Assembly (NCBI GenBank): GCA_002457595.1
Contig: NTJR01000004.1
Span: 1 to 42,751 of the forward strand
Direction of reading: 5' to 3'
From: Marine Group II euryarchaeote MED-G36
Lineage (GTDB): Archaea; Thermoplasmatota; Poseidoniia; Poseidoniales; Thalassarchaeaceae
Length of the DNA: 42,751 nt
This document shows positions 7,519-39,021 of this stretch, in pieces; positions within the stretch are counted from its first letter, which is position 1, and every line of letters starts with the position of its first letter. Made by a program: the position numbers and the translations under genes. Below the pieces are notes generated by a model. The model had not been told where the DNA came from. It made no database searches and worked only from the letters and a program-made list of their open reading frames with translations.

Positions 7519-9294
7519 TTGAAGGAGTCCGGCATCTGGGCTTCAATCGTGGAAGTCCCTACAGAACTCCAGTCGATGCTTGAAGGCAAGCAAGGGCCAA
7601 CTAAGCAGAAGGCCGCTCGTTTGGTTGTTGATTTGGCTTCTTCAGCAGGTGCGAGTGAATTCGTTAGATGTTCACACGCCCATGTATCAGGAGTAAGTGT
7701 AATCACAGGTGGGCATGGACTTCGTCGTTTCCTCTCCGATATTTCGGGTGATTCTGAAGGAATCGTTGCAATACCAACAACTCTGAACTCTTCGGGCTGT
7801 GATATGGATAAAATCGACCAAATGGGAATTGATTATCCAGATTTTCTCAAACACCAATTTGAGATTATTCATGCCTATTCTGAATTGGGAATTGATTCAA
7901 TCCTATCCTGCACGCCATATGATAGTGGAATTGAATTAGCCGAAGGAATAGGTTCTTGGGCAGAATCTAATGCTGTTTGTTTCTCCAATTCATACACATC
8001 TCTAATTACAAACAGAGAATCTGGACTTTCTGCATTAGCCACAGCACTTACGGGATGGGCTCCTCTTTGGGGCTTGCATATTGAAGAGAATCGTCGCCCT
8101 AACATTCTGGTCACGATTGAAGCAGACATGGGAGATACTGCCGATTGGTCGGTTTTGGGTGATTGGATAGGTAAACAAATTCGGCCAGAGTGGAATATGC
8201 CTTGGGGCATGATGCCGCATATCGTGGGATTGCCAGAAAATAATGACTTTGAGATGCGTAAGGCACTTACTGCTGCCGCAGCGAATTATGGCTGTCCTAT
8301 GTTATGGGCAGATGGAATAACTGGAGACCCACCATCTACTGAATCATATGAGGGTGAATTGATTTTTTCAGATGAAAATTTGACAAAGAGATACGATGAA
8401 TTGGCGCCTTCGGGAATTGTCGATTTAGTTGTAATAGGCTGTCCTCAGGCCAGTGTTGGTGAAGCAAGAGCGACTGCGGCCGCAGTTAGAGCGAGAATGG
8501 AATTGGGACAGCGAATACCTAATCAGCGTCTGTGGCTTTTTACCAGTGCTGCAAATTACGAAATGTTAGACGCCGATGGAACTGTATCAATTCTTGAAGA
8601 GGCTGGTGCTTTAGTTCTCAAAGACACTTGTCCCGAGGTTACTCCATACAATCGTTCCCACTACAACCACCTTCTGACTAATTCTCTCAAAGCTGAACAT
8701 TATCTAACCAGTGGACTGAATAGAATGCCAACTAGTGTTGCACCAATTTCACAGTGTGTAGCCCATGCCTTTGATCCAGGTCTCGTTACAGGAGAAAGAC
8801 CAGTTCTTGGCACAAAGAAGGCAAAACCCATTGCTACAAACAAATCACATCAATTAGGCGATGCCAATGTGTCTGGAAAGGGCCTACCAAGCCAAGAAGA
8901 ATGGGTAGTCTCTGGAAAGGCAATGGTGACTGATGTTCCAATAACTTACCTTGGATACGTCAACCGGGATACGGGAGTTATAGAGGAACCTGGACATCCT
9001 CTCGATGGTGTTTCGATTAAGGATACAGTTCTTATTTACCCAAAAGGCTCTGGGTCAACGGTTGCCCCTTTTGTCCTAATGGGATTAATCTATACTGGCT
9101 TCGGTCCTAAAGTAATATTGAATCGAGATGTTTGTCCGTTGACACTTCCCGCAGCAAGCCTTCTAGGTCTGCCATATGCTCATGGATTTGACCAAGACCC
9201 TACTATTGCAATCAATAATGGAGATGAGGTTGAAGTCGTTCTAAATGATGGTAAAGTCTCCTTGAAAGTACTCTCGCGCGTTGGCGAGGATTGA
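7519..9294 (+). CDS. Aconitase X with fused swivel domain (candidate phosphomevalonate dehydratase)
   Basis: This 591-residue protein joins the large AcnX domain (about 1-440) to the small swivel domain, DUF126 (about 462-591). In many archaea these are two separate subunits. The catalytic half contains HVSGVSVITGGHG, a GCPQAS cysteine block (C308), DTCPEVTPY (C371) and SQCVAHA (C413), candidate ligands of a [4Fe-4S] cluster. The swivel half has VVSGKAMV, then PKGSGSTVAP with the expected catalytic serine region. In archaea the family includes mevalonate 5-phosphate dehydratase of the modified mevalonate pathway; bacterial relatives act on hydroxyprolines. The archaeal context favours the former, by inference. 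The start is uncertain: TTG at 7519, GTG at 7549 and ATG at 7576 are in frame, and alignment to family N-termini favours one of the first two. Its TGA overlaps the next ATG by one base. Confidence 0.86.
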   Translation: MKESGIWASIVEVPTELQSMLEGKQGPTKQKAARLVVDLASSAGASEFVRCSHAHVSGVSVITGGHGLRRFLSDISGDSEGIVAIPTTLNSSGCDMDKIDQMGIDYPDFLKHQFEIIHAYSELGIDSILSCTPYDSGIELAEGIGSWAESNAVCFSNSYTSLITNRESGLSALATALTGWAPLWGLHIEENRRPNILVTIEADMGDTADWSVLGDWIGKQIRPEWNMPWGMMPHIVGLPENNDFEMRKALTAAAANYGCPMLWADGITGDPPSTESYEGELIFSDENLTKRYDELAPSGIVDLVVIGCPQASVGEARATAAAVRARMELGQRIPNQRLWLFTSAANYEMLDADGTVSILEEAGALVLKDTCPEVTPYNRSHYNHLLTNSLKAEHYLTSGLNRMPTSVAPISQCVAHAFDPGLVTGERPVLGTKKAKPIATNKSHQLGDANVSGKGLPSQEEWVVSGKAMVTDVPITYLGYVNRDTGVIEEPGHPLDGVSIKDTVLIYPKGSGSTVAPFVLMGLIYTGFGPKVILNRDVCPLTLPAASLLGLPYAHGFDQDPTIAINNGDEVEVVLNDGKVSLKVLSRVGED

Positions 9295-11459
9295 TGACTA
9301 CAAGGCCGAGCAGCGATACTGTGGCTGTACGTCCAGACCCCAGTCCCTGCCGGCCGCAGGACCTTGGAAAGTTCGAGGTCACTGCACGTGATGGAGCAGC
9401 ACGATTGGGTCTATTGTACACCAATCACGGAGTTCTAGCAACCCCAATGCTACTACCTGTGGTAAATCCGAATATTCGAACAATAGAACCGCGTGAAATG
9501 TGGGAGCGTTATCACGTAAATGGATTGATTACGAATTCATATGTTACATGGAAACATGAAAAGTTACGTGACCCAGCTCTCAAAGATGGAATCCATGCTC
9601 TATTGGATTATCCAGGAGTGATAGTTACCGATTCGGGTACCTTTCAGTCATATGTCTATGGAGATGTAGAAGTTGGCGTTGAAGAGATTGTTGAGTTTCA
9701 GAGAAATATTGGTGTTGATATAGGGACAATGCTCGATGTATTTGGCCGCCCGGATATGACTAGAGAAGAACTGGAGAATGCAGTTGTTGAAACCGCGGAT
9801 AGAGCCACCCCATCCCTGACAGTTGCAGGCGAGGAGTTACTACTCAATGGACCAATTCAAGGAGGTCTACATGAAGATTTGAGAGCCCATGCTGGCGACT
9901 TGATGGGTAGTATGGAAGGTGAGCATAGAGGTTTTGCAATTCACCCTATTGGAGGCATAGTTCCTCTAATGGAAAAACAGCGGTATCGAGAATTATTTCA
10001 GATTCTATTGGCGGCTCGTGCTACAATTCCTCCAAATCGACCAATCCATCTCTTTGGTTGTGGTCATCCCTTGCTATTTCCTTTGGCAATTGCCTTAGGG
10101 ACTGATTTGTTTGATTCAGCCGCCTATGCATTGTTTGCTCGCGACGATCGTTTGTTAACACCCGAGGGGACGGTAAAGCTGGGTGAACTTACTGAATGGC
10201 CTTGTCACTCAAGTGCTCTTTTTCATCACACTCCGAAAGAAGTTCGTGAGATGGAAAAGGAGGAGCGGTCTGTTCTTCTTTCTCATCATAATCTTGAGAT
10301 TACGCAGGTTGAACTTGCTAGATGCAGAGAGGCGATTAGAAATGGAACAATTTGGCGTTTAGCCGAACAAAGAAGTCATGCCTCCCCTCAACTAAGGGAG
10401 GCCTTTGAATGGGTAATAGAACAGTTGGTAGATCCTGATGAAGGACCCGTTGGCCAGAGTGCTTTGAGAATAATTTCCTCAACAAATCCCGTACGTGGTA
10501 CTGCGGAGCATTTCGGCAATGATATTGACTACCGTCCACATCTCCTCCACCTAAATGCAATGTTAGCCACAAGATGGCGTGCCCCTGGGTCATGGTGGGA
10601 TGACTCAGTGTCTTCTCCAGAGAGAGTTGTAATTTTGACTGGCGCGGCTCCTCCTTGGCGCAATTCCGCTCTCGGGACTGCGGTGGAGGCACTTCGTGAG
10701 GAACCTCGTTCTGTAATCCTAATTTCTACCCCCATTGGGCTTATTCCATTCACTCTCGAAGATGTCTCACCATGGTGTCATATTGATGGTTCAGACGATC
10801 TATGGAGGATGGTAATTTCTGAGAATGAAATTGATGCATGGCTTGATGACTTGAGCTTGTCCAATTTACCATTGGATATCCACGAATGCCTACCTGATCC
10901 AGATGAGATCGCTGGAGGCGATAAGCGTCAGATAATCCGTGATTGGATAGATCGTTGTACAGTTGTTGACAAACTCTCCTTATTCTGTGGAATTAATCCA
11001 AAATTATCCTGTGATTTAACTTCTAACATGAGTGCTCGAAGATCGAGAACCGACCGTATGGTTAACGTGAATTTTGATGATCAACATTGTTTGTCACCTA
11101 GGCTTCCTGATGGTGCTCTATCTTTGACTCTGAATGGAGCTAGAGCTCTCCACGAATTAAATCCAAATCCTCCTCGTAAATTCCAGTCTGAGATGGAATA
11201 TATCGAGGGAGATCATCTAGGTATTCCACGAGTACTTCTTCACGATGACGCAATACCTTTCGTTGGTCAAGGACGAAATGTCATACATGGATTTGTCTTA
11301 GGTGCAGATTCTCATCTAATAGTTGGTCAGCCTTGTTTAGTGGTAGATTCTGAGGGGAATTTAGTTGCACATGGAATAGCAAATGCTACCGCTGATGACA
11401 TGTCATTCTTCACAAAAGGAATTGCTGTAAAAGTTCGTGATGGTGCAATGAAGCAATGA
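9294..11459 (+). CDS. tgtA: Archaeosine-type tRNA-guanine transglycosylase with ArcS-like middle region and PUA domain
   Basis: This protein exchanges guanine-15 in the tRNA D-loop for preQ0, the first step of archaeosine formation. It has 721 residues, longer than the usual 490-590. The TGT barrel (about 25-370) keeps TDSGTFQ with nucleophile D113, YGDVEVGVEEIVEFQ and GTMLDVFGRPD. Two of the three zinc cysteines are missing: the family pattern PCSCPVC reads PCHSSAL at 303-309, leaving only C304 and the later H332. Around 445-520 the ILISTPIGLIPFTLEDV block resembles the DUF5591 module of archaeosine synthase ArcS, but the PCxxxKPY motif is not present. Residues about 640-715 are a PUA RNA-binding domain. 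The ATG lies in TGATG with the aconitase X stop, so translation is probably coupled. Confidence 0.88.
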   Translation: MTTRPSSDTVAVRPDPSPCRPQDLGKFEVTARDGAARLGLLYTNHGVLATPMLLPVVNPNIRTIEPREMWERYHVNGLITNSYVTWKHEKLRDPALKDGIHALLDYPGVIVTDSGTFQSYVYGDVEVGVEEIVEFQRNIGVDIGTMLDVFGRPDMTREELENAVVETADRATPSLTVAGEELLLNGPIQGGLHEDLRAHAGDLMGSMEGEHRGFAIHPIGGIVPLMEKQRYRELFQILLAARATIPPNRPIHLFGCGHPLLFPLAIALGTDLFDSAAYALFARDDRLLTPEGTVKLGELTEWPCHSSALFHHTPKEVREMEKEERSVLLSHHNLEITQVELARCREAIRNGTIWRLAEQRSHASPQLREAFEWVIEQLVDPDEGPVGQSALRIISSTNPVRGTAEHFGNDIDYRPHLLHLNAMLATRWRAPGSWWDDSVSSPERVVILTGAAPPWRNSALGTAVEALREEPRSVILISTPIGLIPFTLEDVSPWCHIDGSDDLWRMVISENEIDAWLDDLSLSNLPLDIHECLPDPDEIAGGDKRQIIRDWIDRCTVVDKLSLFCGINPKLSCDLTSNMSARRSRTDRMVNVNFDDQHCLSPRLPDGALSLTLNGARALHELNPNPPRKFQSEMEYIEGDHLGIPRVLLHDDAIPFVGQGRNVIHGFVLGADSHLIVGQPCLVVDSEGNLVAHGIANATADDMSFFTKGIAVKVRDGAMKQ

Positions 11460-22678: not shown

Positions 22679-23863
22679 ATGGTGGTAGATGGGATGACTG
22701 AGGATGATACATTGTTCACAATAAAGCAGTCAAATCTAGACTCAGGGATGCGAGGTGTTCCTGTTGGAACCTGCAGAACCTCATTTGTTGATCCACTCGA
22801 AGGAGTTCACTATGTGGGGTATCCTGTGGAGGATCTCGCTAATCTTGAGGAAGAGGACGTAGTCTATCTTTTGATGAACAAGAGACTTCCAACTGAAGAA
22901 GAGTCTGAAGCATTTCGAACAGAGTTGGCTCATCGAGCTATGGATATGCCAACTGGGGCTCTAAGAGTTCTTGAATCTCTTACTCCGGGTAGCGGGCATC
23001 CTATGGACTGGCTATCAATGGGAATCATGGCTCTTGGGGCTGCTGATACAACGGGTGATGTACGCACAGATTCGATGAATCTGATTGCTCGAATGCCGGA
23101 ATTAATGGCTCGTATTTTCTTGCTCCGTGATGGAAAGAAAGAGAATCTCCAACCTAGTCGGCCCGAACTTGGATTAGTAGAAAATTTCGTTCACATGTTG
23201 GGCATGACAGGGGATGAGGCTGAGAGAATGAATAGAGTTCTTCGTTTCTTTTTTATTCTACACCTAGATCATGGAGGTGGTAATTTATCCACTTTTACAG
23301 GTAAGGCCGTTGCCAGTGGTCGAGCGACAGTCTATGCCTCAATCGCTTCAGCAATGAACGCTCTTTCGGGTCCCCTTCATGGCCGAGCAAACCAAGCTTG
23401 CCTTGAGTTTGTTCAGAGAATAGGGACCTCTGATCCAGATGAAGTAGAAGCCTTTGTCCGAGCGGAGTTGGCTGCTAAACGCCCAATTTTCGGTTTCGGA
23501 CATGGCGTTTTAAGAGCCGAAGATCCACGTGCTCGGCTACTTATTGGATTGGGTACAGAAGTTTGCCCCGATGATGAAAACTACAAGATTGTTAAGACTC
23601 TGAGAGAAGTTGTTCCACCGATACTCATGGAGCATCCCAAAATAAAGAACCCGTATCCGAATGTCGATTTAGGTAGCGGTTCTCTCCTTTATGCAATAGG
23701 ATTCCGTAAACCAGAGTATTTCACCACATTCTTCGGTTGGGCTCGAGTTGCAGGAATTTGTGCTCAAATAATGGATGAGAGAAATGCAAGAGATGGGCGT
23801 GGGACACCAATCTATCGACCAAAATACATCGCAAAGAATCAACCACATAGAAGACTAGAGTAA
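22679..23863 (+). CDS. gltA: Citrate synthase
   Basis: A 394-residue enzyme that condenses acetyl-CoA and oxaloacetate, the entry to the TCA cycle. The catalytic triad can be read: H234 in GPLHGRAN, H275 in GFGHGVLR and D330 in NPYPNVD. LHLDHGGGNLSTFT is the block just before the large helices. The C-terminal third (VVPPILMEHP, KIKNPYPNVD, FFGWARVAGICAQIMDERN) is closer in wording to the mitochondrial-type enzymes than to the short archaeal and Gram-positive type. The start is ATG at 22679 or 22694. The stop codon directly abuts that of the convergent phosphodiesterase. sucC and sucD, for a later TCA step, are at 39085-41216. Confidence 0.94.
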   Translation: MVVDGMTEDDTLFTIKQSNLDSGMRGVPVGTCRTSFVDPLEGVHYVGYPVEDLANLEEEDVVYLLMNKRLPTEEESEAFRTELAHRAMDMPTGALRVLESLTPGSGHPMDWLSMGIMALGAADTTGDVRTDSMNLIARMPELMARIFLLRDGKKENLQPSRPELGLVENFVHMLGMTGDEAERMNRVLRFFFILHLDHGGGNLSTFTGKAVASGRATVYASIASAMNALSGPLHGRANQACLEFVQRIGTSDPDEVEAFVRAELAAKRPIFGFGHGVLRAEDPRARLLIGLGTEVCPDDENYKIVKTLREVVPPILMEHPKIKNPYPNVDLGSGSLLYAIGFRKPEYFTTFFGWARVAGICAQIMDERNARDGRGTPIYRPKYIAKNQPHRRLE

Positions 23864-24970
23864 TCATTTACTATGTGTTTTCCCTGCTCCTCTATGACCA
23901 ATGATTCTAGGACTCCCCCAAGGAACTCCCCGTTCTGCTTGTTTAACCCAACTTTCTTCTGAACCAGACCAGTGCATTCTATTACCTTGTTCTATTACTA
24001 TTGAATTTCTGCGTAAATCATCTATTTCGCTCCATTTTGGCAGAGAATGAGAAGCTTCTTTGAAAAGATCCGGGCGCTCTGAATCAGTTGCCGAATCCAG
24101 AATTCTCCTCCATTCGTCATCTAATGGTTGACTTGCCGGACGCATCCAACGAATACTCCCATCAGGTTTTGTCAGCACATCTGGGTTCATATGGTCCGTG
24201 ACTAAAGATAATCCCGCATCTAACATCAAATCCTCAAGTTCTAGTGGTGCAGGCCAAACAAATGCCCCCATCCCTGCTCTTTTCTTGTTTAGCCGACTTA
24301 GAGCTGCTCCTTTGAGGCCTAATGGAATTCCAGGACTAATCCATCTTGTCCATCCATTCAAGAATTCCAGAGCAAGCCCGATTGCTGGCATTTCGTTCTT
24401 TCTAGAATGTCTGATCATTGATGACACGGTTGTTCGAGCAAAATGAGGCATTCCCATCATCCTCTTAATTCTCCAAACTCCCCAGGGTCTGAGGTGTGGC
24501 ATGAGTCTTGTAATTGGAAATTTGAATTCATTGGATTTAGCAACGGATGCAATTTTTGGAGAGAAACTGTAGATGACTGTAGACCTCTCAGGTAGTTCTA
24601 GCGGTTCAAGTTTATTTTCAATTAATTCCATCATTTTAGCAATATATGATTCATGTTTTTTCTTTGAAACCGGGTGGGGCATTTTGAATTCTATACAAGC
24701 AGTTTTCCCTCCTTCTTGCCATGAGTCTGTGAACTTTCTACTCGCTAGCAATTCATCAAATGTCGGAATACCAATTGATTTCAATTCATCAGTTCCTAGT
24801 AATTCGATACATCTATCTCTTTTTGATTTACCATTTGGCAATAAGTCGTCATGGAAAATCACCAAGTCTCCGTCCCTACTCATTTTCAAATCGAATTCTA
24901 CTCCGTCTGAAAATAGCATGCCATGTTCGAGGGCCGCGACTGAGTTCTCAGGTGGTTGCTGCCAAGCCAT
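23864..24970 (-). CDS. Glycerophosphodiester phosphodiesterase family protein, apparently circularly permuted
   Basis: This 368-residue protein has the TIM-barrel GDPD motifs in rotated order. The N-terminus starts at PPENSVAALEHG (6-17), then VEFDL (E25, D27), VIFHDD (H40), ACIEFKM (E94) and the barrel-closing LVTDHMNPD (257-264). In normal GDPDs, HRG comes about ten residues before PEN. Here that motif is the last thing in the protein, RIIGHRGAGKTHSK (355-368), after an extra stretch of about 85 residues. Joining the end to the start gives a perfectly normal GDPD N-terminus. No HRG is encoded between the upstream in-frame stop at 25016-25018 and the ATG. If folded, the active site would be complete, hydrolysing glycerophosphodiesters or a related phosphodiester. 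There is no signal peptide. Confidence 0.82.
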   Translation of the reverse strand: MAWQQPPENSVAALEHGMLFSDGVEFDLKMSRDGDLVIFHDDLLPNGKSKRDRCIELLGTDELKSIGIPTFDELLASRKFTDSWQEGGKTACIEFKMPHPVSKKKHESYIAKMMELIENKLEPLELPERSTVIYSFSPKIASVAKSNEFKFPITRLMPHLRPWGVWRIKRMMGMPHFARTTVSSMIRHSRKNEMPAIGLALEFLNGWTRWISPGIPLGLKGAALSRLNKKRAGMGAFVWPAPLELEDLMLDAGLSLVTDHMNPDVLTKPDGSIRWMRPASQPLDDEWRRILDSATDSERPDLFKEASHSLPKWSEIDDLRRNSIVIEQGNRMHWSGSEESWVKQAERGVPWGSPRIIGHRGAGKTHSK

Positions 24971-25076: not shown

Positions 25077-27041
25077 ATGTCCGAGACAGTAGAATTAGAC
25101 CGAGCATCAGACCCGCAAGCAGTACGTGGATACGCCTTCTATGATTGGGCGAAATCATCCTTTGAGACTTCAGTAACAACAGCAGTATTGCCTGCTTGGT
25201 TCGCTTACCTATTTCTGAAAGCCAACGGATTGGAAACCGAAATTCTTGGTTTAGATATGACTAGAGATGCCGTTTGGTCGTTTGCTGTAACCATCGCTGC
25301 ATTACTAGTCGCAATCGCTAGCCCATCTTTGGGTGTTATTGCTGATCGGCGTGCAATCAAAATGTGGTGGTTAAGGATACTCACTTACTTGGGAGCAGGT
25401 TCAACATTTGCTCTTGCTTTTGCTCCAGTTTTTGATATCTCAATGCAATGGGTATGGATATTCATCATGTTCCTTCTCGCAAATATTGGATTGAATGGTG
25501 CCGGAGTGTTCTACAATGCGCTTCTTCCACATATGGGGACTGATGATGAGATGGATGGCATATCAAACAAGGCCTTCGCCTATGGATATCTAGGTGGTGG
25601 ACTCCTTTTACTCATTCACCTAGTAATGGTCATGATGATTGTTGATGAAAATGGTTCTAACCCAGACTGGGTAATTCCGTTTGTAATGGCATCTTCGGGT
25701 GCTTGGTGGATGGGTTTTGCTTTACTCACATTCAAGCATGTGCCCGAACCTCCTATTGAAAATGAAATGGAGAGTCTTGGAGTAGCAGATTCTGCTAGAC
25801 TCGCTTTTAGTGAACTACGCAAGACGTTTGGTCAAGTTGATAGATTCAAGACACTATTTGTCTACATGCTAGCATACTTCTTCTTCATTGATGGTATTAA
25901 TTCTGTAACTGCACTTGCTGGGATTTACGGGATTACGGTATTAGGTTTGACAACCACGGCCCTAATCACAACAATCCTTGTCATACAATTTGTTGCTGCT
26001 CCATGTGCTATATTATTCACAAAACTAGCAGAGAGGACATCTACCAAATATGCATTGACACTTTCACTTGTTGGTTGGGTGGTTGTTATTGTAGGCGCTA
26101 TGTCATTTGCCCCCCTTGCTCTAACAGATCATTCAGAATATGATGTTCAATTCGATTGGGATTCTGATGGGGATGGTTTGGCCGATTCAGATAAGAATGA
26201 ACTCAATATCGATGGAGACTGGTATACGAACGAAGAAGAAATAGCCGCAGGAACTGACCCATATGACCCTTCTAGTCACCCATCTGGTTTACAGTCAAAA
26301 TGGCAAGAGATGCGAATTGAAAATACGGGTCAATATATTATCACAGTTGGGGACAATGCGTTTGAATTAGATTTGGCAGTAGAAGGAGATGAACAGGATT
26401 GGGCCAACGAATGGTTGTCTTTACTACCTGTACATCAGAATGATAATTATGATCAAAAGGTAGTCTGGGCATTTAATGATCCTACTGATTCATCTTTAGA
26501 GACAACTACTCAAGATACAGAAATGATGCAGCAATTCTTCGATTCCGGATTCGATAAAGATAATCGATTCAGTTACAGTGTTAACGGCGGTCCAATGTCT
26601 ACTTCGACAGGTATGGGCGAAGCACATCCAACCAGTCTTGGAGATGGCCCTCTCGATTTCATTCCAGACAAGGTTCGCTCGATTGTTTGGGAACCCCTAG
26701 GGTTCAATGTGTTCTTGCAATTTGTTCTACTAGGGTGCATGGCCGGAGCTCTGCTCGGCGGCTCCCAAGGATTAGCGAGATCGTTATTTGGACAGATGGT
26801 CCCTGAAACTCGAAGTGCCGAATTCTTCGGCTTCTTCGGCTTCTTTGGAAAGGTTGCAGCATTGTTAGGTCCGATGATTTATGGAATAATGACAGTGGCT
26901 TATGACAGTCGAGTAGGTGTTGCCAGTCTGTGTGTTTTGATTATCATAGGTACTGTGATGATGCGCTATGTCGATGTAGATGCAGGTCGAGCCGATGCTC
27001 AGGCTGAGGATGCACGTAATCGCGGAATCAGTATAGAGTGA
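25077..27041 (+). CDS. MFS transporter of the UMF1/Atg22-like type with calcium-loop insert
   Basis: A 654-residue membrane protein. The N-terminus RGYAFYDWAKSSFETSV (17-33) and the first segments match the UMF1 (Atg22-like) major facilitator group. About ten segments run to residue 350. A hydrophilic insert of about 190 residues (351-540) precedes the last segments. It starts with DWDSDGDGLADSDKNE and NIDGDWYTNEEE, which are thrombospondin type 3/EF-like calcium loops, followed by GTDPYDPSS. The insert is probably outside the cell. The start is ATG at 25077, or ATG at 25035. A much longer in-frame extension upstream is antisense to the phosphodiesterase and is not credible. The substrate is unknown. 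The 3' end is 2 bases from convergent tatC. Confidence 0.85.
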   Translation: MSETVELDRASDPQAVRGYAFYDWAKSSFETSVTTAVLPAWFAYLFLKANGLETEILGLDMTRDAVWSFAVTIAALLVAIASPSLGVIADRRAIKMWWLRILTYLGAGSTFALAFAPVFDISMQWVWIFIMFLLANIGLNGAGVFYNALLPHMGTDDEMDGISNKAFAYGYLGGGLLLLIHLVMVMMIVDENGSNPDWVIPFVMASSGAWWMGFALLTFKHVPEPPIENEMESLGVADSARLAFSELRKTFGQVDRFKTLFVYMLAYFFFIDGINSVTALAGIYGITVLGLTTTALITTILVIQFVAAPCAILFTKLAERTSTKYALTLSLVGWVVVIVGAMSFAPLALTDHSEYDVQFDWDSDGDGLADSDKNELNIDGDWYTNEEEIAAGTDPYDPSSHPSGLQSKWQEMRIENTGQYIITVGDNAFELDLAVEGDEQDWANEWLSLLPVHQNDNYDQKVVWAFNDPTDSSLETTTQDTEMMQQFFDSGFDKDNRFSYSVNGGPMSTSTGMGEAHPTSLGDGPLDFIPDKVRSIVWEPLGFNVFLQFVLLGCMAGALLGGSQGLARSLFGQMVPETRSAEFFGFFGFFGKVAALLGPMIYGIMTVAYDSRVGVASLCVLIIIGTVMMRYVDVDAGRADAQAEDARNRGISIE

Positions 27042-35267: not shown

Positions 35268-36518
35268 TCAAAGAGCAAGGAAGCGGTAGCGCACGTATAC
35301 TGATCCGGCTAGAGATATTTTCTCTGCCTTTGAAAGTTGAATTCTTTCTGTGAATACATCTCCATTTTTCTTCCTTATTTTCTTTAGGATTGAACTATAG
35401 AAAGCAACCATTGCAGCAGGTGAATATCTGGATTGCTTGTCTAACATTGGTAAGAGTCTGAATGCTTTATCACGATATGATTCGGCCTTAGTTATGTATT
35501 CCTCAACGAATGGTTGCCATCCTGGGTGATTTAGTAATTCTACTCCAGAGTGAACGTCCTCCTCGGTGATTCCAAAACGACGAAGATCTTCCATTGGGAG
35601 GTAGATTCTATCTCTCTCAGAATCCTCTGCGACATCACGAAGTATGTTCGTCATCTGCATGAAAATCCCCCAGGCCTCAGCACATTCTCTAGCCGCATGA
35701 TTTTCATAACCATATATCTCAATGCAGACGAGCCCTACTGTAGAGGCTACTCGATAACAATAGGAATAGAGTTCCTCAAAATCTTCGTAACGATTCCTAT
35801 GCAAATCATCTTCCATACCACTAATCATCTCGTCTAATAATTGTCGTGGTATGTTGTAACGACGAATTGTGTCCTTAAGTGCGATGAAAATAGGATCTGT
35901 GGAGGTTATCTGTGAGTAAGCAGTAGAGAGTTTCTTTCTGTAATAGAATAACTGAGACATTTTATCTTCGTAATAACTACGCTCAACTACAGGTGAGGAG
36001 CCTGTTAGCCGCTCGATATCGGTCCGATATTCAACAGATTCAGGGTCTTCTGAAGAACCACCAGGAAATTCATCAACGTAATCTCCATCAGCAATATCAT
36101 CTGCTCTTCGACAGAATGCGTAATAAGCACAAATCGAGCGAAGTGCTTCCTTTGGTAAATACTTGAATGAGTGATAGAAATTTCCGGCTTCAATTTTTGT
36201 TAATTCTTCACAGTAATCATATGCTGCATCAACCAAATATTCGGGGACATCTGATTCTGACCAAATAGCAGCATCAAGGTGAGAGAAGGGATTCAGTAAT
36301 TCTCCTCTAGGGCCAATGACACCCATAAATCTAGCACCTTCTCGTAATGTTTCTAGAGTTGTAATACTAATTGCTCGGGCGGCATCACGAGTGACGCTAA
36401 CAGCAGATCTTACAATCTCAATATTTTCGGAGTTAGATTCCGCCTCAACTAGAGATACGCTACGCCCAACATCGTAGCGAATTCCGGATGCGGAATCGGT
36501 CTTCTCTCTCTGAACCAT
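35268..36518 (-). CDS. hpnD: HpnD-like presqualene diphosphate synthase
   Basis: A 416-residue squalene/phytoene synthase-fold protein. The two metal-binding Asp motifs are DDIAD at about 140-144 and DVAED at 295-299. The surrounding text (CEELTKIEAGNFYHSFKYLP, YYAFCRRADDIAD, NILRDVAEDSERDRIYLP) fits HpnD or phytoene synthase. HpnD condenses two farnesyl diphosphates into presqualene diphosphate. HpnD is preferred to CrtB because hpnC- and hpnE-like genes lie upstream on the same strand. The first 95 or so residues precede the normal family start and are not recognised; an internal ATG such as M65 may be the true start. It is the last of the three genes, upstream of ABCE1. Confidence 0.78.
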   Translation of the reverse strand: MVQREKTDSASGIRYDVGRSVSLVEAESNSENIEIVRSAVSVTRDAARAISITTLETLREGARFMGVIGPRGELLNPFSHLDAAIWSESDVPEYLVDAAYDYCEELTKIEAGNFYHSFKYLPKEALRSICAYYAFCRRADDIADGDYVDEFPGGSSEDPESVEYRTDIERLTGSSPVVERSYYEDKMSQLFYYRKKLSTAYSQITSTDPIFIALKDTIRRYNIPRQLLDEMISGMEDDLHRNRYEDFEELYSYCYRVASTVGLVCIEIYGYENHAARECAEAWGIFMQMTNILRDVAEDSERDRIYLPMEDLRRFGITEEDVHSGVELLNHPGWQPFVEEYITKAESYRDKAFRLLPMLDKQSRYSPAAMVAFYSSILKKIRKKNGDVFTERIQLSKAEKISLAGSVYVRYRFLAL

Positions 36519-36585
36519 GGTTCTTACAGAACCAAGCCAACATCTTTCACTCTTGAATCCGACGGCTACTCGTTAGAACTTTGAT

Positions 36586-37551
36586 TCATATACTGAGTTT
36601 CAGAGCAGCCTTCCATTTCCTACGTGCTTTCATCAGTAGAATTAGCTGTTTGAACTTGCTAACTTTGGGTCTTTTCCGCCAAGTGTCGTAACCCTGCCGC
36701 CTAATGGCTTCTAGAACCGCTTGGCCACCCCAACTAAACATCATCAAATCAACAGCCAATTTCGGGTCACATTTAGTCCAAAGTTCGGTACCTTTGTCAA
36801 ACCATTCTTGAGCTCGTTCAACTTCTTCAATCATTAGTGCTTTCCATCTATTATCAAAAACTCTTGAGTTGTAATCTTCGTATGAATATCCATGTCGAGT
36901 CATGGTGTCTTCTGGCATGTAGATTCGATTCTGTTCTAGGTCTCGTGAAACATCCTGCCAGTGGTTTGCTAATTGAAGAGCAGTACAGGTCCAATCGGCA
37001 AGTTTTCTGAGTTCTTCATCGTCATGACCGTAAATATATAGGAACAAATGGCCAACAGGGTCGGCACTATAGAAGCAATATTCGCGTAATTCATCAAAAT
37101 TAGCAAATCTTTTCTTTGTTTGATCCATTTTGAAAGCCTGAATTAATTTCCAAAATGGTTCTTTTGGAATGTTTCGTTCTTTGGCAGTATACTGAACGGC
37201 ACGTAGAATTGGATGTCGAGGATTTCCTGACCAATTGTCCTTTGCCGCCTCTTCAAGATCTTGTTCCCAAGCATCGAGTAGATTCCATCTGATTTCGTCA
37301 CTAAATGGAGCATCATCACCAAGATCGTCACCATAGCGACTGAATGCGTAAATATTCTGTATGTGTTGAACATGCTCTTCAGGTGTGAAGTGATTTGTGA
37401 CAACAAAATTTTCGTAATGTGATTTTGTAATTAATGTGCAATATGCGAGTGCCTCTTCTTGGCTCGGTTTGGAATCCCAACCGGCTAGGTGTGTCACAGT
37501 TCCGTCCTCGGCCACTCTGTGCTCTCCAAAGTCAAATTTTTCTCCCATCAC
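36586..37551 (-). CDS. hpnC: HpnC-like hydroxysqualene synthase
   Basis: A 321-residue member of the same fold. It has the HpnC-type opening AYCTLITKSHYENF at about 36-49 and the first Asp motif DDLGD at 75-79. The KMDQTKKRFANFDELREYC block and ALQLANHWQDVSRDLEQNRIY (second Asp motif DVSRD at 200-204) follow. The LQLxNxWQDV wording is typical of HpnC rather than of phytoene synthase. HpnC turns presqualene diphosphate into hydroxysqualene. The basic C-terminal tail (RKRPKVSKFKQL, MKARRKWKAALK) is longer than usual and may bind membrane. The start is GTG at 37551 or the next-codon ATG at 37548. It is 6 bases after the hpnE-like gene. Confidence 0.8.
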   Translation of the reverse strand: MMGEKFDFGEHRVAEDGTVTHLAGWDSKPSQEEALAYCTLITKSHYENFVVTNHFTPEEHVQHIQNIYAFSRYGDDLGDDAPFSDEIRWNLLDAWEQDLEEAAKDNWSGNPRHPILRAVQYTAKERNIPKEPFWKLIQAFKMDQTKKRFANFDELREYCFYSADPVGHLFLYIYGHDDEELRKLADWTCTALQLANHWQDVSRDLEQNRIYMPEDTMTRHGYSYEDYNSRVFDNRWKALMIEEVERAQEWFDKGTELWTKCDPKLAVDLMMFSWGGQAVLEAIRRQGYDTWRKRPKVSKFKQLILLMKARRKWKAALKLSI

Positions 37552-37557
37552 GATAAC

Positions 37558-39021
37558 CTACCATTCTTTCCAGTTCTCTGCGCCTCTTTTTGGTGCTTCA
37601 GGCCAGTCCGGCCATGACTTATCGTGGTGCCACTCTGTGATAGTAGAATCTCCTCTCTGTTTGATGACAACTGAGGCCGCAGTTAGCCCTGATCTAGTTG
37701 CTCCTTCCATTGTGCTCGGCCAATCAATGTCAAGCCAATCTCCGCCAAGAATCACTCCATCTCCTACATCTAGAGGTGAAGGTCGGTTTCGTTGTGAACC
37801 TGTCCTCAGAGCTGTTGTGGCGCGTTTGGCGCGAACCACATGAAAATCATTGATCATTGGTGCATTAGGAAATGCAGTCTGAACTACACGCTCATATTCT
37901 GTGCGAATCATTTCATTATCCCAATCAATGTATGAATCTGCATGTGAAACTGGTACTGAGATCCAATATCCGGGCAGTCCCATTTGATGTCCATCATCTA
38001 ATTCGGAGGTTCTGTCAAACAGCATCTGTATCAGAGGTTCATCACAGCAGGTGACGAATGGAATCCCATCTGGAAGCACAGGGCCTTCATGGAATGCGTG
38101 AATCCCAATTAGTGCTGTATTCCCTAGATTGGCTAATCTATCTGCTACCTCAAATGATGCGACCCCCGCATCTTTACCAGTTAGCAATCTTGCAGTCGTC
38201 GATATAGGGGTGCAAAGTACCACTGCCGATGCAGGAATTACTCCTTCGCGTGTTATTACTCCTGTGACTTTTCTTTCTTCTCGGAAAAGTTCTGTAATCG
38301 GCATTGAGGTCCTTACATCAACTCCAGTTCTAGCTAGAGTTCGACGTAATGCAGGTGCGATTGAATTTGATAAGTCTGAAGTGAAAGATGCAACATCAAA
38401 TGCATCTTTCTCTCCGAAAATCCCGCGTTGGAAAAGGAAAGATGCGGCAGAGGTACTAGCTTCCTCACAACCAATGTTCAACGCGGCTTTAACCAAAGGG
38501 TCCCAAAAGCGACGAATGGTTCTCTCAGTCTGTCCATTATGTTCGAGCCATTCCAGGAAGGGCATGTCGTCGAGCGAACGGCGTTTTTGTTCATCCATTT
38601 GTTTGAAGGCCTTCAGGGCTTTTCGTAAAGGAATCTTGTCATTCAGACTAAGAAAATTAACCTTCATCAACGACATAGCGAGGTGATAAGGAGGCGGAAG
38701 ACTGCCCGATTTGACTATGCTAATTTTTCCATTATCTACCTCTAAGTATGGCAGTTTTGTCTGTTTTTGCAATTTTAATGCATCTCTGGCATCACAGGTT
38801 GCCAACAATTGCAGAAATCTACCATAAATTCTGAACGCCGCATGCTGACAATTATCTATGGGGTGTTCGATCCCTTTCAGATTGACACTCTGAACGCGTC
38901 CACCAAGTACTGATCCTGCCTCGAAAAGAATCACTGGAATACCACGTCCAGCCATGGCTAGAGCACAGGCGCAACCTGACAGGCCACCACCGACAACGAC
39001 CACAGGGAGTTGTTCAGTCAC
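37558..39021 (-). CDS. hpnE: HpnE-like hydroxysqualene dehydroxylase (FAD amine-oxidase fold)
   Basis: A 487-residue flavoprotein. VVVVGGGLSGCACALAMAG with the later E34 is the FAD dinucleotide-binding fold, and GGRV follows at 40-43. IDNCQHAAF corresponds to the HpnE DNGQH motif, with Cys in place of Gly. WLEHNGQTERTIRRFWDPLVKAALN is the most characteristic HpnE block. HpnE reductively removes the hydroxyl of hydroxysqualene to give squalene. CrtI-type phytoene desaturases share the fold but not this block. The C-terminus (VILGGDWLDIDWPSTMEGATRSG) closes the FAD site. It is the first of the three squalene genes, 63 bases after sucD on the same strand. Confidence 0.8.
   Translation of the reverse strand: MTEQLPVVVVGGGLSGCACALAMAGRGIPVILFEAGSVLGGRVQSVNLKGIEHPIDNCQHAAFRIYGRFLQLLATCDARDALKLQKQTKLPYLEVDNGKISIVKSGSLPPPYHLAMSLMKVNFLSLNDKIPLRKALKAFKQMDEQKRRSLDDMPFLEWLEHNGQTERTIRRFWDPLVKAALNIGCEEASTSAASFLFQRGIFGEKDAFDVASFTSDLSNSIAPALRRTLARTGVDVRTSMPITELFREERKVTGVITREGVIPASAVVLCTPISTTARLLTGKDAGVASFEVADRLANLGNTALIGIHAFHEGPVLPDGIPFVTCCDEPLIQMLFDRTSELDDGHQMGLPGYWISVPVSHADSYIDWDNEMIRTEYERVVQTAFPNAPMINDFHVVRAKRATTALRTGSQRNRPSPLDVGDGVILGGDWLDIDWPSTMEGATRSGLTAASVVIKQRGDSTITEWHHDKSWPDWPEAPKRGAENWKEW

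Follow-up and report, generated by a model that had tools for sequence, protein, structure and literature searches.

Glycerophosphodiester phosphodiesterases (GDPDs) of the Pfam family PF03009 share an active site in which the His and Arg of an HRG motif at the top of β1 are combined with an E-x-D motif on β2, a second His, an E-x-K motif and a divalent metal. In canonical GDPDs a PEN motif comes after the HRG motif, and their barrels close within their own chain. Natural permutations of a TIM barrel in which the active site is kept are, to our knowledge, few. In two such pairs of enzymes, GH70 with GH13 and transaldolase with class I aldolase, the cut points differ from that of the protein described here. 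These known cases are the GH70 glucansucrases as compared with GH13 (PMC6274110), and transaldolase as compared with class I aldolase, a pair discussed in PMC2213659. They resemble our protein in being natural permutations of a (β/α)8 barrel that retain the active site, but they belong to other enzyme families. A literature search that covered few subscription journals found no report of a permuted GDPD, which may therefore be new.

The window is a stretch of 42,751 nucleotides of a contig of the Marine Group II euryarchaeote MED-G36. It contains, on its minus strand, a frame of 368 amino acids that runs from an ATG at 24970 to a TGA stop codon at 23866-23864 (coding sequence 23864..24970, stop codon included). 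An earlier sequence-only reading of the window had described this frame, with PEN near its start and HRG at its end, as a circularly permuted GDPD. The frame and its motifs are real, the minus strand being a detail absent from that reading, and the residue numbers that it gave (E25, D27, H40, E94, H359 and R360) were all correct on translation. The protein matched PF03009 with an E-value of 2.9e-9 and 37.9 bits (cut-off 23.6) over profile positions 9-165. Its closest solved relatives are likewise PF03009 GDPDs (2pz0, 2otd, 1o1z and the archaeal 7e0v and 4oec), with which it shares the HRG, PEN, E-x-D, H and E-x-K motifs and the T-D at β8 and is predicted to share the barrel. The GDPDs in the PDB that were aligned to it all have the conventional order. 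In the window protein, by contrast, β1 with the HRG motif is C-terminal, a linker follows β8, and 7-8 extra residues span the broken loop.

Along the chain, the PEN motif (residues 7-9; 24944..24952, minus strand, as are all positions in this paragraph) lies at the start of α1, judging by the phmmer alignment with 2otd. Among members of the permuted family with a residue at the site, E8 was conserved in 68/71 and N9 in 71/71. Strand β2 (residues 23-30; 24881..24904) carries the metal-binding residues E25 and D27, which were found in every member that has a residue at these sites. H40 (24851..24853), the second catalytic His of GDPDs, is invariant in the permuted family, and so are E94 and K96 of the E94-F-K96 motif (24683..24691) on the strand of residues 90-95, which aligns with the canonical E-x-K. 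A linker (residues ~263-350; 23921..24184), without a canonical counterpart in hhalign, leads from β8 to the moved β1 (residues 352-363, GSPRIIGHRGAG; 23882..23917), with the catalytic H359 and R360. The frame ends in PRIIGHRGAGKTHSK, and the stretch IIGHRGAGKTHSK at its C-terminus contains both catalytic residues.

In the 73 sequences first aligned, E25, D27, H40, E94, K96, D259, H359 and R360 were invariant wherever the residue was present, and in the permuted-family alignment the same held for W351, R355, H359, R360, G361 and G363. Hence the family has the full catalytic set of GDPDs, i.e. the HR of HRG, the Glu and Asp of β2, the second His and E-x-K; the HRG strand, however, does not stand at the N-terminus ahead of PEN. 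As this displacement is the permutation itself, we call the window protein a permuted variant of the PF03009 family rather than an ordinary member. Inspection by eye revealed neither a clear signal peptide nor a clear membrane segment, and the protein is therefore provisionally taken as cytosolic.

Joining the C-terminus to the N-terminus recreates a canonical-like N-terminal region, as the sequence-only reading had proposed. The spacing across the join is slightly off normal, however: H359 and E25 are 34 residues apart, against 27 in typical canonical relatives. The 7-8 extra residues are expected for two free ends at a broken β1-α1 loop. The added stretch between the barrel end and the HRG strand also exists, but its limits are about 263-350 rather than 270-355 and its length varies among genera.

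Profile comparison was used to examine the order of parts at the level of families. A canonical profile (31 canonical GDPDs of the same phylum) and a permuted-family profile (35 members) were compared by hhalign. In the natural order, query 6-262 aligned with canonical 20-228 (score 145.5, E 1.9e-20), and a second match placed query 352-363 on canonical 6-17, with an E-value of 9.5e-4 by itself. With the C-terminal block put first, both were replaced by a single co-linear match over canonical 6-228 (score 168.1, E 8.7e-24). When the columns of the moved segment were shuffled, none of the 20 controls scored above 150.7. Rotation thus yielded one co-linear match to the whole domain that was better than the match in natural order, as is characteristic of a circular permutant. 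The PF03009 score likewise increased from 37.9 to 45.5 bits upon rotation, with the match now starting at profile position 1, whereas a scrambled segment gave 38.0 bits. Furthermore, phmmer split the alignment of the protein with the solved structure of the GDPD 2otd into two segments whose order was permuted (query 351-364 with chain 4-17, and query 6-46 with chain 19-60).

Tests on single sequences gave a similar but less pronounced result. The second match at the C-terminus, starting at profile position 6-9, was found in nearly all of the 66 members, and the mean gain upon rotation was a modest 2.6 bits, compared with -1.8 bits for shuffled segments. Many sequences of the second family, which have a longer tail behind HRG, gained little or nothing. 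This longer tail (L067 (G066) and L036-L041) is conserved and reads roughly GK[TS]xRP[VI], in place of KTHSK/KTHG in the first family; it would lie near the active site.

A structure was predicted with AlphaFold2 from an alignment of four close relatives and canonical viral GDPDs cut to the part from PEN to the TD of β8. The cut canonical rows are silent on the moved strand, save for two end residues that were aligned at the very C-terminus. In the resulting model (pLDDT 66, pTM 0.65), strands lie at residues 23-30, 90-95, 131-135, 153-157, 198-202, 236-241, 256-260 and 355-359; that is, β2 to β8 in order and then an eighth strand running into HRG, with low confidence at the C-terminus (pLDDT 29-44 for residues 331-368). 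The linker is predicted to form helices at 285-293, 299-309, 318-332 and 338-346. Foldseek comparison of the model with the PDB gave GDPDs as the best matches (2pz0, E 2.6e-9). An earlier model from five sequences was poor (pLDDT 43) and was not used. A barrel fold is thus predicted for the permuted GDPD. The sequence-only reading had expected H359 and R360 to sit next to E25, D27 and H40; the predicted strand order agrees with this, and homology predicts that both residues contact the rest of the catalytic set, but at pLDDT <50 for residues 340-368 the model supports such a placement rather than demonstrating it.

Mean-field couplings were calculated from a shallow alignment (132 rows, ~83 effective). 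The pairing of the C-terminal strand with β8 ranked in the top 1% of windows and that with the strand of residues 90-96 at 2.4%, while β2 was uninformative because it hardly varies. These couplings weakly suggest that the C-terminal strand lies beside β8.

The permuted gene was found in 139 of the 146 sampled genomes of Ca. Poseidoniales. A relative with 92% identity, found in a contig scan with a single-sequence query, belongs to Ca. Thalassarchaeaceae, a family of the order Ca. Poseidoniales in the class Ca. Poseidoniia of the Thermoplasmatota. Judging by the rank structure and by PMC6461757, f2 (the second family) would be Ca. Poseidoniaceae and f3 would be Marine Group III. In 131 of the 133 members read, the HRG motif was C-terminal, its His standing 8-19 residues from the end of the chain, and none of the 133 had an in-frame HRG before PEN. 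The marine archaeal orthologues hence have the same order of parts and lack a canonical N-terminus; the sequence-only reading had named orthologues with an N-terminal HRG as a finding that would refute it. Of the two exceptions, one (L074) is truncated where its contig stops, whereas the other (L073) loses its frame before the C-terminus. The same permuted order was found in a 2.06-Mb single-contig genome (G002, L062). In one locus (L023) the reading frame opens one codon ahead of the start Met, which leaves no room for an N-terminal strand. A search for HRG in all three frames of the 180 nt before PEN, to include frameshifted copies, gave scattered matches in five loci, mostly attributable to chance and not conserved.

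A few copies deviate in other ways. In L073 (G005) the frame is lost ~40 residues ahead of the HRG strand and no GHRG follows downstream, which may reflect decay of the copy, a frameshift or misassembly. Otherwise intact orthologues in L009 (G116), L027 (G067) and G120 are each interrupted by a single in-frame stop (TAA or TGA), which may reflect sequencing error, decay or an upstream stop. The linker is ~30-40 residues shorter in several genera with HRG kept, which fits a mere connector; W313 is nearly invariant within this otherwise length-variable stretch.

When 390 genomes of the phylum were searched with the permuted-family profile, members of the order matched with E-values of 1e-66 to 1e-162. 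Outside the order, the best match had an E-value of 1.3e-10 and all matches were canonical GDPDs. Within its phylum, the permuted GDPD thus appears to be confined to Ca. Poseidoniales as sampled; other phyla, covered by one contig scan with a single-sequence query, may also contain permuted GDPDs. Two other groups of GDPDs are of interest here. The f3 GDPDs (L096-L101), from the same class but outside the order, have a PRIISHRG strand that resembles the moved PRIIGHRG strand; however, they have the normal order in frames of 230-247 aa without the linker, and they fall outside the permuted clade in the tree. Many first-family genomes encode a short second GDPD (~190-200 aa; L102-L110, e.g. L104; 42.5 bits to PF03009) that occurs in the same organisms as the permuted one but has the normal order, with HRL (GHRLGASGT) in place of HRG; it was not detected in the second family. 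Two frames on viral contigs (L195 and L169) look similar to this HRL type. In IMG/VR, the family search found no permuted relative, and among 95 GDPD-like frames from motif searches none was recognised as permuted. With tblastn, the phage collection gave no match and the plasmids gave one, which was ordinary and partial.

A tree of the barrel core, in which the moved strand was left out, joined 18 permuted sequences in one clade with support of 100/100, at the end of a long branch of 1.88 changes per column from the canonical GDPDs. The permutation therefore most probably arose a single time, ahead of the split between the two families of Ca. Poseidoniales, and would be old; nearly all of the order carries it. 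The locus is conserved as well. The convergent neighbour in the window is a citrate synthase gene (22679..23863, plus strand), whose stop codon abuts that of the GDPD gene; citrate synthase was found in 20/20 neighbourhoods, as the direct convergent neighbour in all but one (L255). The divergent neighbour is a major-facilitator transporter of the ATG22/UMF1 type (25077..27041, plus strand; Pfam ATG22, E 4.1e-51), and such a transporter holds this position in most of the 20 neighbourhoods, consistent with synteny; a TatC gene is near in most. The transporter contains a large insert with repeats of calcium-binding type (DWDSDGDGLADSDKNEL...), unusual for a major-facilitator protein; the insert has a weak TSP3_bac match below the cut-off. 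Elsewhere in the window, inspection by eye suggested a frame that resembles a fusion of an aconitase-X type protein with a small swivelling domain (7519-9294), an adjoining frame like archaeal tRNA-guanine transglycosylase (9291-11459), and, on the minus strand at 35268-39021, a tandem pair of squalene/phytoene-synthase-like frames with a desaturase-like flavoprotein after them.

Our preferred reading, to which we assign a probability of about 0.87, is that the gene encodes a cytosolic metal-dependent GDPD whose (β/α)8 barrel has been circularly permuted by one strand, in a natural event that cut the β1-α1 loop. The chain would run α1-β2-...-β8-linker-β1. Both new ends would lie in the former β1-α1 loop, at the catalytic face. 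A mostly helical linker of roughly 50-90 residues would join the old ends and return the chain from β8 to the barrel's bottom, where the C-terminal strand starts. This strand would then insert between β8 and β2 and bring H359 and R360 beside E25, D27, H40, E94 and K96. Catalysis would follow the usual acid-base chemistry of GDPDs, with a pair of His residues, Arg on the phosphate and a divalent metal on Glu and Asp, and would release glycerol phosphate from glycerophosphodiesters. Since its single origin, the permutation would have been kept at a fixed locus.

Several other explanations were weighed against this reading. The source genome is a draft that is 57% complete, and the order of parts might in principle be an artefact of assembly or recombination in this metagenome-assembled genome; the same order in 131/133 sequences of two families, including the single-contig genome, refutes this and leaves it a negligible chance. 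The weak overall family match, beginning only at profile position 9, would also suit an inactive GDPD that lost β1 and was joined to an unrelated C-terminal region. An HRG at the C-terminus by chance is rejected by its conservation in 131/133 orthologues. Moreover, the twelve residues that match canonical β1 do so alone, at E 9.5e-4 and in the expected register, the six invariant positions from W351 to G363 fall in or next to them, and the active-site residues on both sides are kept order-wide. A truncated enzyme is therefore very improbable.

The simplest reading is a barrel that closes within its own chain. The sequence would equally fit closure between chains, in which the HRG strand completes the barrel of a partner subunit and two chains share an active site, and the long linker ahead of the strand and the low model confidence in that region leave room for such a swap. 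We nevertheless consider it quite unlikely: a linker of such length easily reaches its own barrel, it may drop ~30-40 residues in several genera with HRG retained, and canonical GDPDs are established to close within the chain. A modest chance should be given to a permuted GDPD fold with another reaction, acting on a different phosphodiester such as an intact lysophospholipid or a phosphoglycerol polymer. Its β1-α1 loop is cut open, the branch of 1.88 changes per column separates it from canonical GDPDs, and the fold includes phospholipase D-like enzymes, of which 7ymq was among the Foldseek matches. Conversely, the permuted family has every catalytic motif of ordinary GDPDs in invariant form, and among the 39 genomes of the second family for which a match was listed, the permuted GDPD was the only PF03009 protein found.

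The cut of the permuted GDPD goes through the catalytic loop itself and moves two catalytic residues into the last 8-19 residues of the chain. Its near order-wide presence, with linkers of varied length, provides a natural series for the tolerance of barrels to permutation. Searches that need HRG first, or a full-length GDPD match, will overlook or misinterpret this GDPD in archaea that rank among the most abundant of the surface ocean. The enzyme could release glycerol phosphate from lipid head groups, either scavenged or the cell's own. It is rather improbable, but would be of consequence, that the permutation serves Poseidoniales as a functional trait, in which the cut loop and the free tail after HRG make the active site accessible to phosphodiesters that are larger or of another kind, and the enzyme supplies glycerol 3-phosphate to archaea without glycerol-1-phosphate dehydrogenase, which are thought to build membranes that are G3P-based or mixed. 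The enzyme for the glycerol 1-phosphate backbone was found in 0/270 genomes of Ca. Poseidoniales, while G3P dehydrogenase is encoded in all genera but one (PMC6461757; see also PMC6962369). An enzyme that releases glycerol 3-phosphate would bear on the membrane question of these archaea without glycerol-1-phosphate dehydrogenase.
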